Origin: Akkermansia muciniphila
GTDB taxonomy: Bacteria > Verrucomicrobiota > Verrucomicrobiia > Limisphaerales > UBA9464
Assembly: GCA_945900455.1 (NCBI GenBank)
Contig: CAMDJH010000035.1
Span: 1-34,334, forward strand
DNA length: 34,334 nucleotides
Reading direction: 5' to 3'
Of the stretch, positions 25,271-29,921 are shown piece by piece (position 1 is the first letter of the stretch; every line of letters starts with the position of its first letter). The position numbers and the translations under genes were made by a program. The notes beneath the pieces were generated by a model. It was not told where the DNA came from. It worked only from the letters and a program-made list of their open reading frames with translations, and ran no database searches.

Positions 25271-25570
25271 ATGTTTTCACACGTTGTCATTTTTTGGACG
25301 GATCCCGCCAATCCCAAGGACGCCGATGATCTCTTGGCGGGATGTCATCGCTACCTGAAGCCCATCCCAGGGGTACTCAGTTATCACGCCGGTCGGATGG
25401 TTGGCAGCCCTAGGCCGGTGGTTGAGCAGTCCTACCAAGTGGCGCTGAATCTGGTGTTTTCCGACAAGAAAGCGCAGGATGACTACCAAGCGCATCCCAT
25501 GCATATCGAGTTTGTGGAGAAAGTGTTACGGCCGCTTTGCAAAAAAATCCTCGTCTATGACTTCGAGTAA
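25271..25570 (+). CDS. Dabb (stress-responsive alpha/beta-barrel) family protein
   Basis: MFSHVVIFWTDPANPKDADDLLAGCHRYLKPIPGVLSYHAGRM...YQVALNLVFSDKKAQDDYQAHPMHIEFVEKVLRPLCKKILVYDFE, the characteristic Dabb layout. Confidence 0.9.
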   Translation: MFSHVVIFWTDPANPKDADDLLAGCHRYLKPIPGVLSYHAGRMVGSPRPVVEQSYQVALNLVFSDKKAQDDYQAHPMHIEFVEKVLRPLCKKILVYDFE

Positions 25571-25572
25571 CC

Positions 25573-25917
25573 CGTATGGCCAAAAAACTCATGCGGCATC
25601 TCGGTAGTAGAATTTCAGGAGGCCGCCGAGGCGCTCGCGAGTGTGTAGATCCCCTGACATTTCACCGATCCGATCCTCGGGCGCTGGAAACAGGATCACG
25701 TTGCCCTTGCCTTTGACCTCGTTCTTGAGAATCCGGTTCTCCGTCACCAGATACTCGTTGCGCAGGAGGAGCTCCTGATCAACCGAACTGGAGAGGGTCG
25801 CCAGCATTCGTTTCCAATTCATCGCCGAGCCTTAACCGAACCAACGGCCTGCGAGCAATCTTCTGATCGTCCTGCAAATCGTTGAATATCGGTAGGTTCG
25901 AGTTTTTTGACCCTACG
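25573..25917 (-). mobile_element. Mini-element copy 1: internally deleted derivative of an integrase-type IS, with TIRs
   Basis: Left end cgtatggccaaaaaactc (25573-25590); right end gagttttttgaccctacg (25900-25917), reverse complement cgtagggtcaaaaaactc: 16/18 match. About 140 bp at the left end and about 100 bp at the right end match copy 2 at 29341-29730. Confidence 0.85.
25589..25822 (-). pseudogene. 77-aa in-frame remnant of IS transposase/integrase (N-terminus fused to C-terminus)
   Basis: MNWKRMLATLSSSVDQELLLRNEYLVTENRILKNEVK + GKGNVILFPAPEDRIGEMSGDLHTRERLGGLLKFYYRDAA. The start resembles N-termini of integrase-type transposases common in Verrucomicrobia (recollection). The C-terminal 35-40 aa match the 29357-29635 ORF. 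Confidence 0.75.
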
Positions 25918-26048: not shown

Positions 26049-29000
26049 TTACGGAGCGGCGATGCGGAGTCGGAAAAACCGTTGCCTGCCACCGGCGGGC
26101 TCGTGGTAGGTAACGATGCTGCCGTCGCCGGTCGTGGTGGCGCGGTCGGACCAAGCCCCAGGTTCGCTCGAAGCACTCTCGCGGGATTCGACCGTGTAAT
26201 GGTAACCCGGCTGCGTAGGGTAGCGGAAACGGAACTCACCGCCCGCCAGGCGCGGCGCGCAGTCACCGGAGGAAATCGTGCCGGCGTCGTCGAACCCCTG
26301 CGCGTTGCCGTGGTCGTCGCTGGCGAAGAGTTGCACCCGGAACTCCTGGCAGGCGGTCAGCGCGCTGAGCGTCAGCGCGAACCGCACCGTCACAGTGCGA
26401 CCTTCGGGTCCGGTCGTGGTGAGACTGCTTTGACTGAGGTCCACCGTTACCCACGGATTGGCGAATGTGTCATTGGCGCCGAAGGACTGGCCCGCGCTAA
26501 AGGTGTCGGTCGCGTCGTCGTGAAAGCTCAGCGTCCGTGTGGCTTCGTCGAACCGCAACCAGGCGACAACACCCTCGTGGCTCACCAGGCGGAGCTGGAC
26601 GGAGTCGAGGTCGGTCCAGACGTTCGGATGTTTCCAGGCCAGCTCCAGGAAAACGGGCTGCCCAGGCGTCGCGACCACGTGGCTGGGTGTGAGCGTGAAT
26701 TCTCCGACTCGGATGCCGTAGCGGATCGCGAACAAGCCGGCGTTGGCCTCGCCATCGGCCAACCCCTCCGGCGCGCCGATCAGCAGGTCGCTTTGCCCAT
26801 CGGCATCGAGGTCGAAGGCGGCCAGCGCATTGGGCGAGGCGAACGTCAGATTACCTCCGAGATGATCGTGAAGGACTGGCACACGTCCGAACTGCGGCAT
26901 CAAGAGGGTCTGCGCGTTCGCAAGGTTGAGGCTGCCCACCGCGAGCGCCGGCGGTGTCCCGATCAGGGGCGGGCACAGGGAGCAACTGGGCACCGTGGTC
27001 GCCGGTGGCCTGCTGCCGTGAATGAGAAACACGGCGCCGGCTTCGGTCGCCCCCGCGGTCAGCCGCGGCGCGGCCACGGCGAGGTCGGTGATGGCGTCGC
27101 CGCTGAAGTCCCCCGCGCAGAGCGTGTGGCCGAAGCGGATGGATTGGAGCGCGGTCCCGCCCGGTAGGTTGGTGCGGCAGAACGCCAGCGAGGCGTTGGT
27201 GGCCAGTGCGCCGATGAGCCCACGGTAGATCGCGACAAAGCCTGCGTCCGCCACGCCGCCGATGTTTTGCGACGGCGTTCCGACGGCCAGATCCAACTTG
27301 GTCAACGTGCCGCCGCCGAAGTTGCCGAGCGCCAGCGTCTCGCCGAAACGCGCGCCCGCTTGCGGCCCGGTGAAGGGCGCCGCCACGGAACGCGCGTCGC
27401 GCAGCGTGGCTCCGCTGAGTTGAAAGGTTTTGACGCCGCTGTTGCCTGGGATGACGAATACCACGCCCGCTCCGCCCACCGCGTTGTAACTCTCGCCCGG
27501 CGCGGAGACGATCAGGTCATCCGCGAAGTCACCCGTCACGTCACCCGCCGCGAGCGTGAATCCGAATTGATCGTTTGCTTCGTTGCCGCCGACTCCGCCC
27601 GTGGGCAGTTGATCCTCCACAATGAACAGGCTTTGAGCCTGTGTCAGGCCGCCCGGCCGGCCGTGGAAAACCGTCACGCGCCCCGAGTTGCCGGCGCTCC
27701 CGGCCGACATGCCGGGAGTGCCCACAGCCAGGTCGGCCAGCCCATCGTGATCGAAGTCCCCGACTGCCAGCGCGCTGCCGAAGTCGTCGCCGCCCACGAG
27801 CACCACCCTCGGCGCACTGGCCCTGCCGTCGAGGATGAAGACCCGACCCATGCCCGGCGCACCGATGGCGATCTCCTTGAAACCGTCGCCGTCAAAATCC
27901 CCCGCCACGAGCGTCTGGCCGAACCGTCCATTCGCCTGCGCCGTCACGCCCCAAAACGTCGGATTCACGCCGCCGGCCGGGAGCACCGCGCCGCTGGCTG
28001 AGATAAGAATGTTGAACTGAATCCCGGCGGGAGACACCAGACGCGCCACCACCCTCCCGCCGCCCGCCCCCGGGATTCCGATCGCCAGCGTCTGAAAAAC
28101 CGGTCCGTGGAACAGTTGCCCCACCGCGAAAGCACTTCCGAACTGCTCGCCCGCGCCCGCGTTGCCGAATGAACTGCCAGTATAAAATGTGTTGATGCTT
28201 TCCTGGTAATCGGGGCGGCCATCCTGATCCGAGTCCACCATCCAGCCGAAATTCGGATGCACGTTGAGGAAGCCCTGCTCCTCGAATTTGACTTTGCCCG
28301 AGCCGTTGGCGTTCATCACCCACAGATACTGCGGCGACTTCAAAATGGGCAGCAGGCCATGGAAAAAAGCGATCTTCGTCCCGTCCGGCGACCACGAAGG
28401 ATCGCCCGAGCCGAAGAGGTGATCGGTCGTGAGGTCCGCCGCGCTGCCGCCGTTGGCGGCGTTGATCACGAAGACGTCACCATAAGGCGGCGAGCCGTCG
28501 CGTTCCGAGGTGATGGTTAACCGCAGTCCATCGGGACTCCACGAGGCGTCGTGATCCTCACCGTCGGCCGAGGTGATCTGCCGCTCGTCCGTGCCGTCGG
28601 GCTTGATCGTAAAAATGTCCTTAAACCCCGGGCCGAACGCGCGGGTGAACGCGATGCGCGTCCCGTCCGGCGACCAGGCCGGCTCGACATCCTCGAACGG
28701 ATTCGTGGTGACGCGCGTGATCGCTCCGTTGGTCAAGTTGAGAATGTAAATGTCGAGTTTACCAAAACGTTCCGAGCTGAAGGCAATCCTGTTCCCATCC
28801 GGGGACCACGACGGTTCGGTGTCCAGCCCGGGCGAATCGGTGAGGCGTCGCCGGTTCGCGCCGTTCACGTCCATCACGTAGAGCTCCTTGTTGAAGGCGT
28901 GGCCGCGATTCGAGACGAAGGCGATCTGTTTTCCGTTCGGTGAGAGGGTCGGGTGATCTTCAGGCAATTGCAGCCCGTGCAAGTCATCCAGTTCAAAGAT

Positions 29001-29201
29001 GGGATTGGCGAAACTGGTGAGCTGTTTAAATCCGGTGCCATCGGGTCGGACGAGCCAGATGCCGCCGAAGCCTTCGCCATCCAACCCGACCGCGGTGAAG
29101 GCAATAAGTTGGCCGGCGCTGTTCGGCGGCACGGCCGCGGGGACGGTCATCGCGCCGGTGAAGAACAGCGCGGCGGCGAGGGAACAGAGTCTGGTTTTCA
29201 T
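26049..29201 (-). CDS. Exported TolB-like (PD40) plus FG-GAP/integrin-alpha-type repeat double beta-propeller protein
   Basis: Signal MKTRLCSLAAALFFTGAMTVPAA. At least four PD40 repeats (EPSWSPDGNRIAFSSERFG, EPAWSPDGTRIAFTRAF, DASWSPDGLRLTITSERDG, DPSWSPDGTKIAFFHG). About six FG-GAP repeats (DFDGDGFKEIAIGAPGMG, DFDHDGLADLAVGTPGMS, DVTGDFADDLIVSAPGES, DFSGDAITDLAVAAPRL, DLDADGQSDLLIGAPEG). C-terminal YTVESRES...FFRLRI. Confidence 0.9.
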   Translation of the reverse strand: MKTRLCSLAAALFFTGAMTVPAAVPPNSAGQLIAFTAVGLDGEGFGGIWLVRPDGTGFKQLTSFANPIFELDDLHGLQLPEDHPTLSPNGKQIAFVSNRGHAFNKELYVMDVNGANRRRLTDSPGLDTEPSWSPDGNRIAFSSERFGKLDIYILNLTNGAITRVTTNPFEDVEPAWSPDGTRIAFTRAFGPGFKDIFTIKPDGTDERQITSADGEDHDASWSPDGLRLTITSERDGSPPYGDVFVINAANGGSAADLTTDHLFGSGDPSWSPDGTKIAFFHGLLPILKSPQYLWVMNANGSGKVKFEEQGFLNVHPNFGWMVDSDQDGRPDYQESINTFYTGSSFGNAGAGEQFGSAFAVGQLFHGPVFQTLAIGIPGAGGGRVVARLVSPAGIQFNILISASGAVLPAGGVNPTFWGVTAQANGRFGQTLVAGDFDGDGFKEIAIGAPGMGRVFILDGRASAPRVVLVGGDDFGSALAVGDFDHDGLADLAVGTPGMSAGSAGNSGRVTVFHGRPGGLTQAQSLFIVEDQLPTGGVGGNEANDQFGFTLAAGDVTGDFADDLIVSAPGESYNAVGGAGVVFVIPGNSGVKTFQLSGATLRDARSVAAPFTGPQAGARFGETLALGNFGGGTLTKLDLAVGTPSQNIGGVADAGFVAIYRGLIGALATNASLAFCRTNLPGGTALQSIRFGHTLCAGDFSGDAITDLAVAAPRLTAGATEAGAVFLIHGSRPPATTVPSCSLCPPLIGTPPALAVGSLNLANAQTLLMPQFGRVPVLHDHLGGNLTFASPNALAAFDLDADGQSDLLIGAPEGLADGEANAGLFAIRYGIRVGEFTLTPSHVVATPGQPVFLELAWKHPNVWTDLDSVQLRLVSHEGVVAWLRFDEATRTLSFHDDATDTFSAGQSFGANDTFANPWVTVDLSQSSLTTTGPEGRTVTVRFALTLSALTACQEFRVQLFASDDHGNAQGFDDAGTISSGDCAPRLAGGEFRFRYPTQPGYHYTVESRESASSEPGAWSDRATTTGDGSIVTYHEPAGGRQRFFRLRIAAP

Positions 29202-29340: not shown

Positions 29341-29730
29341 CGTATGGTCAAAAAACTCATGCGGCCTCTCGGCAATAAAATTTCAAGAGACCGCCGAGGC
29401 CCTCGCGAGTCTGTATATCCCCTGACATTTCAACGATCCGATCCTCGGGCGCTGGAAACAGGATCACGTTGCCCTTGCCTTGGTGATTTTGCTCCGCGTG
29501 GAAATGATTCACGTAATTATCAAGGCAGTGGCGTTGAAGAACATTGCCAACGGTCTGATGGCTGAGCTCGTAACCCAAGTTGCTGAGCGCACCCACAATC
29601 CGGCGATAGCCCCAACTTCGGTTCTCACAATTCATCGACGAGACTTAACCGAGCCAACGGCTTGGGAGCAATCTTCTGATCGCCCTGCAAATCGTTGAAT
29701 ATTCGTAGGTTCGAGTTTTTTGACCCTACG
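29341..29730 (-). mobile_element. Mini-element copy 2: differently deleted derivative of the same IS, with TIRs
   Basis: Left end cgtatggtcaaaaaactc (29341-29358); right end gagttttttgaccctacg (29713-29730), reverse complement cgtagggtcaaaaaactc: 17/18 match. Flanking blocks nearly identical to copy 1, same orientation. Confidence 0.85.
29357..29635 (-). pseudogene. 92-aa in-frame remnant of IS transposase/integrase lacking the catalytic core
   Basis: MN + CENRSWGYRRIVGALSNLGYELSHQTVGNVLQRH + LDNYVNHFHAEQNHQ + GKGNVILFPAPEDRIVEMSGDIQTREGLGGLLKFYCREAA. ENRSWGYRRI and HFHAEQNHQG are family-typical pre-core and post-core segments; the DDE core is absent. Confidence 0.75.
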
Positions 29731-29921
29731 ACGTCCAAATAGATTGGCCATGGCGAAACCCTTTCAGGTCCATAGTCACAACATATAGTCACAAGAATGG
29801 GAACAACAAAGTGGAAAAACAGGCTGAAATGTTCATAAAAATGGCCTTTAAAAGAGGTGAAGTGAATTGGTGCTTCGGTTCATGGCATCACGGCGCGCAC
29901 TGTTGAGTTCGGTGGATTCTT

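Follow-up and report, generated by a model that had tools for sequence, protein, structure and literature searches.

A probable internally deleted insertion sequence beside a Dabb-domain gene, and its family of copies that lack target duplications and lie at breakpoints

The window analysed here, a stretch of 34,334 nucleotides from a 6.43-Mb MAG (420 contigs) of Akkermansia muciniphila, carries two short copies of one insertion sequence (IS), copies 1 and 2, on either side of a PD40/FG-GAP repeat gene. The features of this part of the window, with the evidence for each in brackets, are:

25271-25570, + strand: intact Dabb-domain gene (conserved flank ends at 25572 in comparison with a congener)
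25573-25917, − strand (transposase orientation): copy 1, a 345-bp IS with an internal deletion (sequence, BLASTN against its own genome, mapping to a 1182-bp parent reference)
25573-25590, + strand: inverted repeat at the 3′ (transposase stop) end of copy 1 (sequence, end-motif counts)
25589-25822, − strand: 77-aa frame, transposase residues 1-38 fused to 317-356 (ORF, BLASTP)
25713-25714, − strand: approximate deletion junction of copy 1, reference 204|1042, 837 bp, in frame (mapping)
25900-25917, − strand: inverted repeat at the 5′ (transposase start) end of copy 1 (sequence, end-motif counts)
26049-29201, − strand: PD40/FG-GAP repeat gene between copies 1 and 2 (comparison with the congener G002)
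29341-29730, − strand: copy 2, 390 bp, with two in-frame deletions (sequence, mapping)
29357-29635, − strand: 92-aa frame of copy 2, comprising an HTH part (residues about 111-148) and the C-terminal 58 residues (ORF, domain and alignment searches)
29731-29751, − strand: 5′ end of a tyrosine-recombinase gene (7 codons, MANLFGR), truncated at the copy 2 edge (flank comparison)

After the Dabb stop codon (TAA, 25568-25570) come two bases, CC, and the left end of copy 1, CGTATGGCCAAAAAACTC, at 25573-25590; the right end at 25900-25917 reads GAGTTTTTTGACCCTACG (reverse complement CGTAGGGTCAAAAAACTC). These termini are 18-bp inverted repeats with 16 of 18 positions identical, in agreement with a preliminary description of a 345-bp unit with inverted termini beginning 2 bp after the Dabb stop. 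The sole substantial frame inside the unit is the 77-aa frame, whose stop codon (25589-25591) overlaps the left repeat, as had been noticed, by 2 bases. Residues 1-39 of this frame align by BLASTP to residues 1-39, and residues 37-77 to residues 316-356, of a full transposase of 356 aa, which bears out the proposal that it joins the start and end of an integrase-type transposase; no Pfam domain remains in the fusion. Relative to an IS of ~1.18 kb, copy 1 lacks 837 bp in frame and keeps ~204 bp at the 5′ side and ~141 bp at the 3′ side. It is a genuine mobile-element remnant with its middle deleted, and the remnant itself is ordinary.

A BLASTN search of the host genome with the 345 bp gave 57 matches and a protein search gave 128. 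Sites resembling the end motif (up to 3 mismatches) also numbered 128 in the host genome, versus 8 for a reversed control pattern, so the ends of copy 1 are not due to chance. The matched places in the host and in two congeneric genomes, G001 and G002, were taken and mapped (183 chains) to a 1182-bp reference, a near-full host copy (C12:1-1140, with an in-frame stop) completed with the final 42 bp from copy 2. The host yielded about 95 mapped fragments, G001 36 and G002 42 (78 for the two congeners); 54 of all these have both ends. At 99 left and 119 right ends the conserved block starts with CG. Elements that end in the same way are found in Acidobacteria, Gammaproteobacteria, Opitutae and Bradyrhizobium erythrophlei GAS478 (three copies of 2.18 kb), and a plasmid search gave distant relatives only, with <60% identity. 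An intact parent was found in an Opitutae MAG (L181; 1179 bp, 359-aa frame, CGTATGGTCAAAAAACTC at both ends). Because this element and further relatives carry ends of the same form, the termini of the parent are those of copy 1; the preliminary description had staked its reading on ends shared with other genomic copies and on a full-length parent whose termini agree, and both were found. We could not find an intact transposase in the host MAG, which contains a single weak rve match and a near-full copy that lies at a contig end and is interrupted by an in-frame stop, and identical intact copies may be unassembled, given the 420 contigs and the copies at contig ends. Identical deletion junctions repeated across the three congeneric genomes support the reading that we hold with high confidence, namely that copy 1 derives by internal deletion from a ~1.18-kb IS with an rve/HTH transposase, is non-autonomous and is one of a family of about 95 host fragments.

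The parent is an IS of ~1.18 kb with a single-ORF rve/HTH transposase that is related to both IS481 and IS3. By domain search the transposase falls among HTH_32, HTH_21 and rve_3 proteins, and its best NCBIfam match is the IS481-family model NF033577 (96.9 and 86.5 bits versus a cut-off of 224), with the IS3-family model NF033516 at 72.3 and 62.8 bits versus a cut-off of 160. The parent resembles the IS481 family / IS1202 group in having an HTH and an rve-type catalytic domain, but it differs from IS481 in its CGTA...TACG ends, in a score far under the cut-off and in the absence of target-site duplications (TSDs). IS481 TSDs are reported as 2-15 bp, mostly 6 bp (PMC10045372), and the element has neither such a duplication nor a score above the NF033577 cut-off. 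The likeness to IS3 consists of the 72.3-bit match, which spans residues 17-317, and an N-terminus that is coiled-coil-like by eye, whereas the parent has one continuous ORF in place of the orfA/orfB of IS3 and scores under that cut-off as well. The IS630 family was rejected: the match reaches 44.8 bits versus a cut-off of 100, with its best stretch over the HTH, there is no TA at the ends, where IS630 would have a 2-bp TA duplication, and the sites of relatives lack the invariant CG. A sequence-based search for solved structures gave no match to the transposase.

Internal deletions of this IS take dozens of different forms. The two most abundant in the host, G001 and G002 together are a frameshifted 388-bp form (794-bp deletion) and an in-frame 438-bp form (744-bp deletion), with 18 copies each, followed by forms with deletions of 189 bp (13 copies) and 342 bp (10 copies); several junctions are common to different species and are combined in different ways. 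The 388- and 438-bp forms are true MITE families. Copy 1 is likewise a short element with inverted repeats and without a functional transposase, and it has its ends in common with an autonomous parent (L181). Its 345-bp structure, however, occurs once, where a MITE would have many dispersed copies, and the TSD that usually flanks a MITE is missing. The earlier suggestion of a MITE family thus holds for a non-autonomous remnant with many genomic relatives and fails for copies of the same length, the amplified forms being those of 388 and 438 bp. Like IS-derived bacterial MITEs such as MITEAba12 (PMC6382973), the short forms are non-autonomous and multi-copy, with IS ends and no functional transposase; the present family differs in the lack of TSDs, in the many internal deletions side by side and in the single occurrence of the 345-bp form.

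Because the 345-bp form is unique, copy 1 may have shrunk in place. We consider it an even chance that a full-length IS at 25573 lost its middle there and that transposition of the 345-bp form never took place. In the three congeneric genomes no other mapped copy has the 204|1042 junction, and many other junctions likewise occur singly; yet the 388- and 438-bp forms did move, so short forms of this family can be mobilised. For the 345-bp form itself mobilisation is unproven, since the structure occurs once. In the reading of copy 1 as an internally deleted IS, most deletions would run from one short direct repeat to another within the ORF, and some of the deleted forms would then be moved in trans by full-length transposase in the manner of MITEs.

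Over the three genomes we counted 36 distinct ORF-internal junctions, 22 of which are in frame (p=0.0006 versus an expectation of 1/3). Short direct repeats (at least 4-6 bases) in the coding sequence themselves favour in-frame spacing (0.40-0.44), and against a repeat-pair expectation of 0.42-0.44 the p-value is 0.016-0.03, which leaves the in-frame excess as a weak lead. One explanation for such an excess is that the short element is selected and that its in-frame fusion protein is a functional inhibitor of transposition. The KP derivative of the P-element, which is a repressor, offers a comparison for such a putative fusion-peptide inhibitor. The 22 in-frame junctions and the fact that all three deletions in the window (837, 330 and 462 bp) are multiples of three point in this direction, but a comparison of the singleton changes in each form with randomised changes drawn from an identical spectrum does not: singleton N/S in the in-frame 438-bp form is 0.78 of expectation (P(S)=0.13), near-neutral, much like the frameshifted 388-bp form, which is neutral (about 1.0 and 1.8). 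The 189- and 342-bp deletion forms have fewer amino-acid changes than expected (N/S 0.55 and 0.44), although this low N/S may reflect recent functional ancestry or recombination. Since frameshifted and in-frame forms are equally abundant and both neutral, a role for the short peptide is disfavoured; selection on the fusion peptides is unsupported for the abundant forms, and we regard an inhibitor as very improbable. With its frameshifted and in-frame forms equally amplified, the family serves as a natural experiment on the importance of truncated transposase frames, and here these frames apparently do not matter.

Copy 2 maps with two in-frame deletions, one of 330 bp (102|433, beginning a few bases within the ORF) and one of 462 bp (about 523|986), and the 462-bp junction recurs in one congener (L290). 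The outer flank of copy 2 consists of the first seven codons of the tyrosine-recombinase gene, the remainder of which is missing beyond the other side of the copy. The segment 29731-29990, comprising the leader of this gene and the 7 codons, contains a ~57-bp sequence, GAATCCACCGAACTCAAC...ATGAACCGAAGCACC, that is similar to one recurring at dozens of sites in G001 and G002. A composite transposon of copies 1 and 2 was rejected, as their outer flanks are not joined in G002. That congener holds a different gene between Dabb and a downstream metallophosphoesterase-like gene, which makes the place of the PD40/FG-GAP gene a variable slot.

No TSD is present at copy 1, as the preliminary description had observed. 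Of 53 copies for which both flanks are available, 51 likewise show none, and TSD-like matches are no commoner than with shuffled partners. The base composition of left versus right flanks excludes a TSD of each length from 1 to 15 bp (minimum p below 1e-9 per length). The flanks are mirror images, with a pyrimidine preceded by C/G on the left and a purine followed by C/G on the right (SY|element|RS). We considered whether the invariant CG could be a 2-bp TSD in an SYCGRS target. However, the uninterrupted sites of relatives continue with GC, GT, AC and similar, CG is seen in relatives' sites only where the relative itself carries the element, and 13 ISAs1 copies in Bradyrhizobium have GG at the position. 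Because these uninterrupted sites lack CG, it is part of the element. The suggestion that copy 1 is an old insertion or that its duplication has decayed is therefore unlikely: flank composition excludes a 1-15 bp TSD family-wide, and near-identical copies in the finished Bradyrhizobium genome also lack a TSD.

For 35 host copies the 75-bp flanks were joined and used as queries against G001 and G002. About 12 host copies had one flank conserved, and nearly all of the matches end at the element edge or a few bases from it, with no match among the testable copies crossing the junction into the other flank in either congener. At copy 1 the conserved Dabb side stops at 25572, after which G002 goes on with another gene. 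Comparison with related genomes, proposed earlier as a way to fix the ends, and the uniform start of the conserved block at CG in left and right ends make the boundaries of copy 1 exact. No testable copy had a contiguous empty site. Most of the missing flank halves are also absent elsewhere in the host; for the right flank of one copy (L080) the continuation is intact elsewhere (C17), making that flank a duplicated fragment of ~90 bp. One of the parent copies in Bradyrhizobium lies directly against an ISAs1 element lacking its first ~77 bp, which are present in 13 other ISAs1 copies, and at another parent copy a homologous flank of 1155 bp stops at the element edge. Since conserved flanks stop exactly at element edges, we conclude that the copies mark deletion or rearrangement breakpoints.

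False breakpoints could come from short-read contigs misjoined at repeats. The MAGs are fragmented, with 18 mapped host copies extending past the region end, mostly at contig ends (44 such elements over the three genomes), but the one-sided pattern is likewise seen in the isolate B. erythrophlei GAS478, and we judge an assembly artefact to be improbable.

Both transposase-mediated adjacent deletion and recombination between copies in the same orientation cause TSD-less IS copies (PMC11708052), and either could have brought about element-mediated deletion at the flanks here. The TSD-less IS movements with deletions or duplications described in that study, one of which involves an IS481 element, resemble the present copies in placing an IS at a deletion or rearrangement edge without a TSD. 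They differ in that TSD loss is occasional there, whereas here 53 two-flank copies show no TSDs beyond chance. It is possible, if doubtful, that insertion is conventional and that homologous recombination between copies is the sole cause of the missing TSDs and one-sided flanks. About 95 similar copies lie in one genome, and lost-TSD copies of such origin are documented (PMC11708052). Two pairs of copies (L036/L304 and L099/L316) have a one-sided junction common to the host and G002 with different internal deletions (794 versus 189 bp), which suggests crossover or conversion between copies or, alternatively, assembly chimeras. However, flank shuffling would leave average composition unchanged, and that composition excludes any TSD of 1-15 bp; in addition, the missing ISAs1 end in Bradyrhizobium adjoins neither of the other two known copies. 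Recombination alone does not account for the flank composition; the data do not otherwise separate it from transposase action.

A less likely reading is that the family integrates without target duplication, its ends being joined separately to SY|RS sites with loss of the DNA between them; target DNA would then be deleted at insertion as a rule. Were insertion the cause of the loss, such integration would be unusual and would truncate genes repeatedly. What is unusual is the family, a DDE-type IS group in at least four bacterial groups with copies that lack TSDs and lie at deletion edges.

Three further observations concern individual copies. The Bradyrhizobium version (L205 2862-5042, 2.18 kb) has a second gene, for a UPF0149 protein with a SEC-C motif, that is a possible passenger. 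In one copy (L098 583-1025), about 270 bp lie within the element with an apparent duplication of 6 bp of the element, possibly another small mobile element. Finally, one insertion of the form with the 744-bp deletion is common to the host (L048 2183-3801) and G002 (L283 1-1614) with flanks 99% identical, well above the 88-93% of two longer matched regions, which would fit recent transfer or cross-binning.
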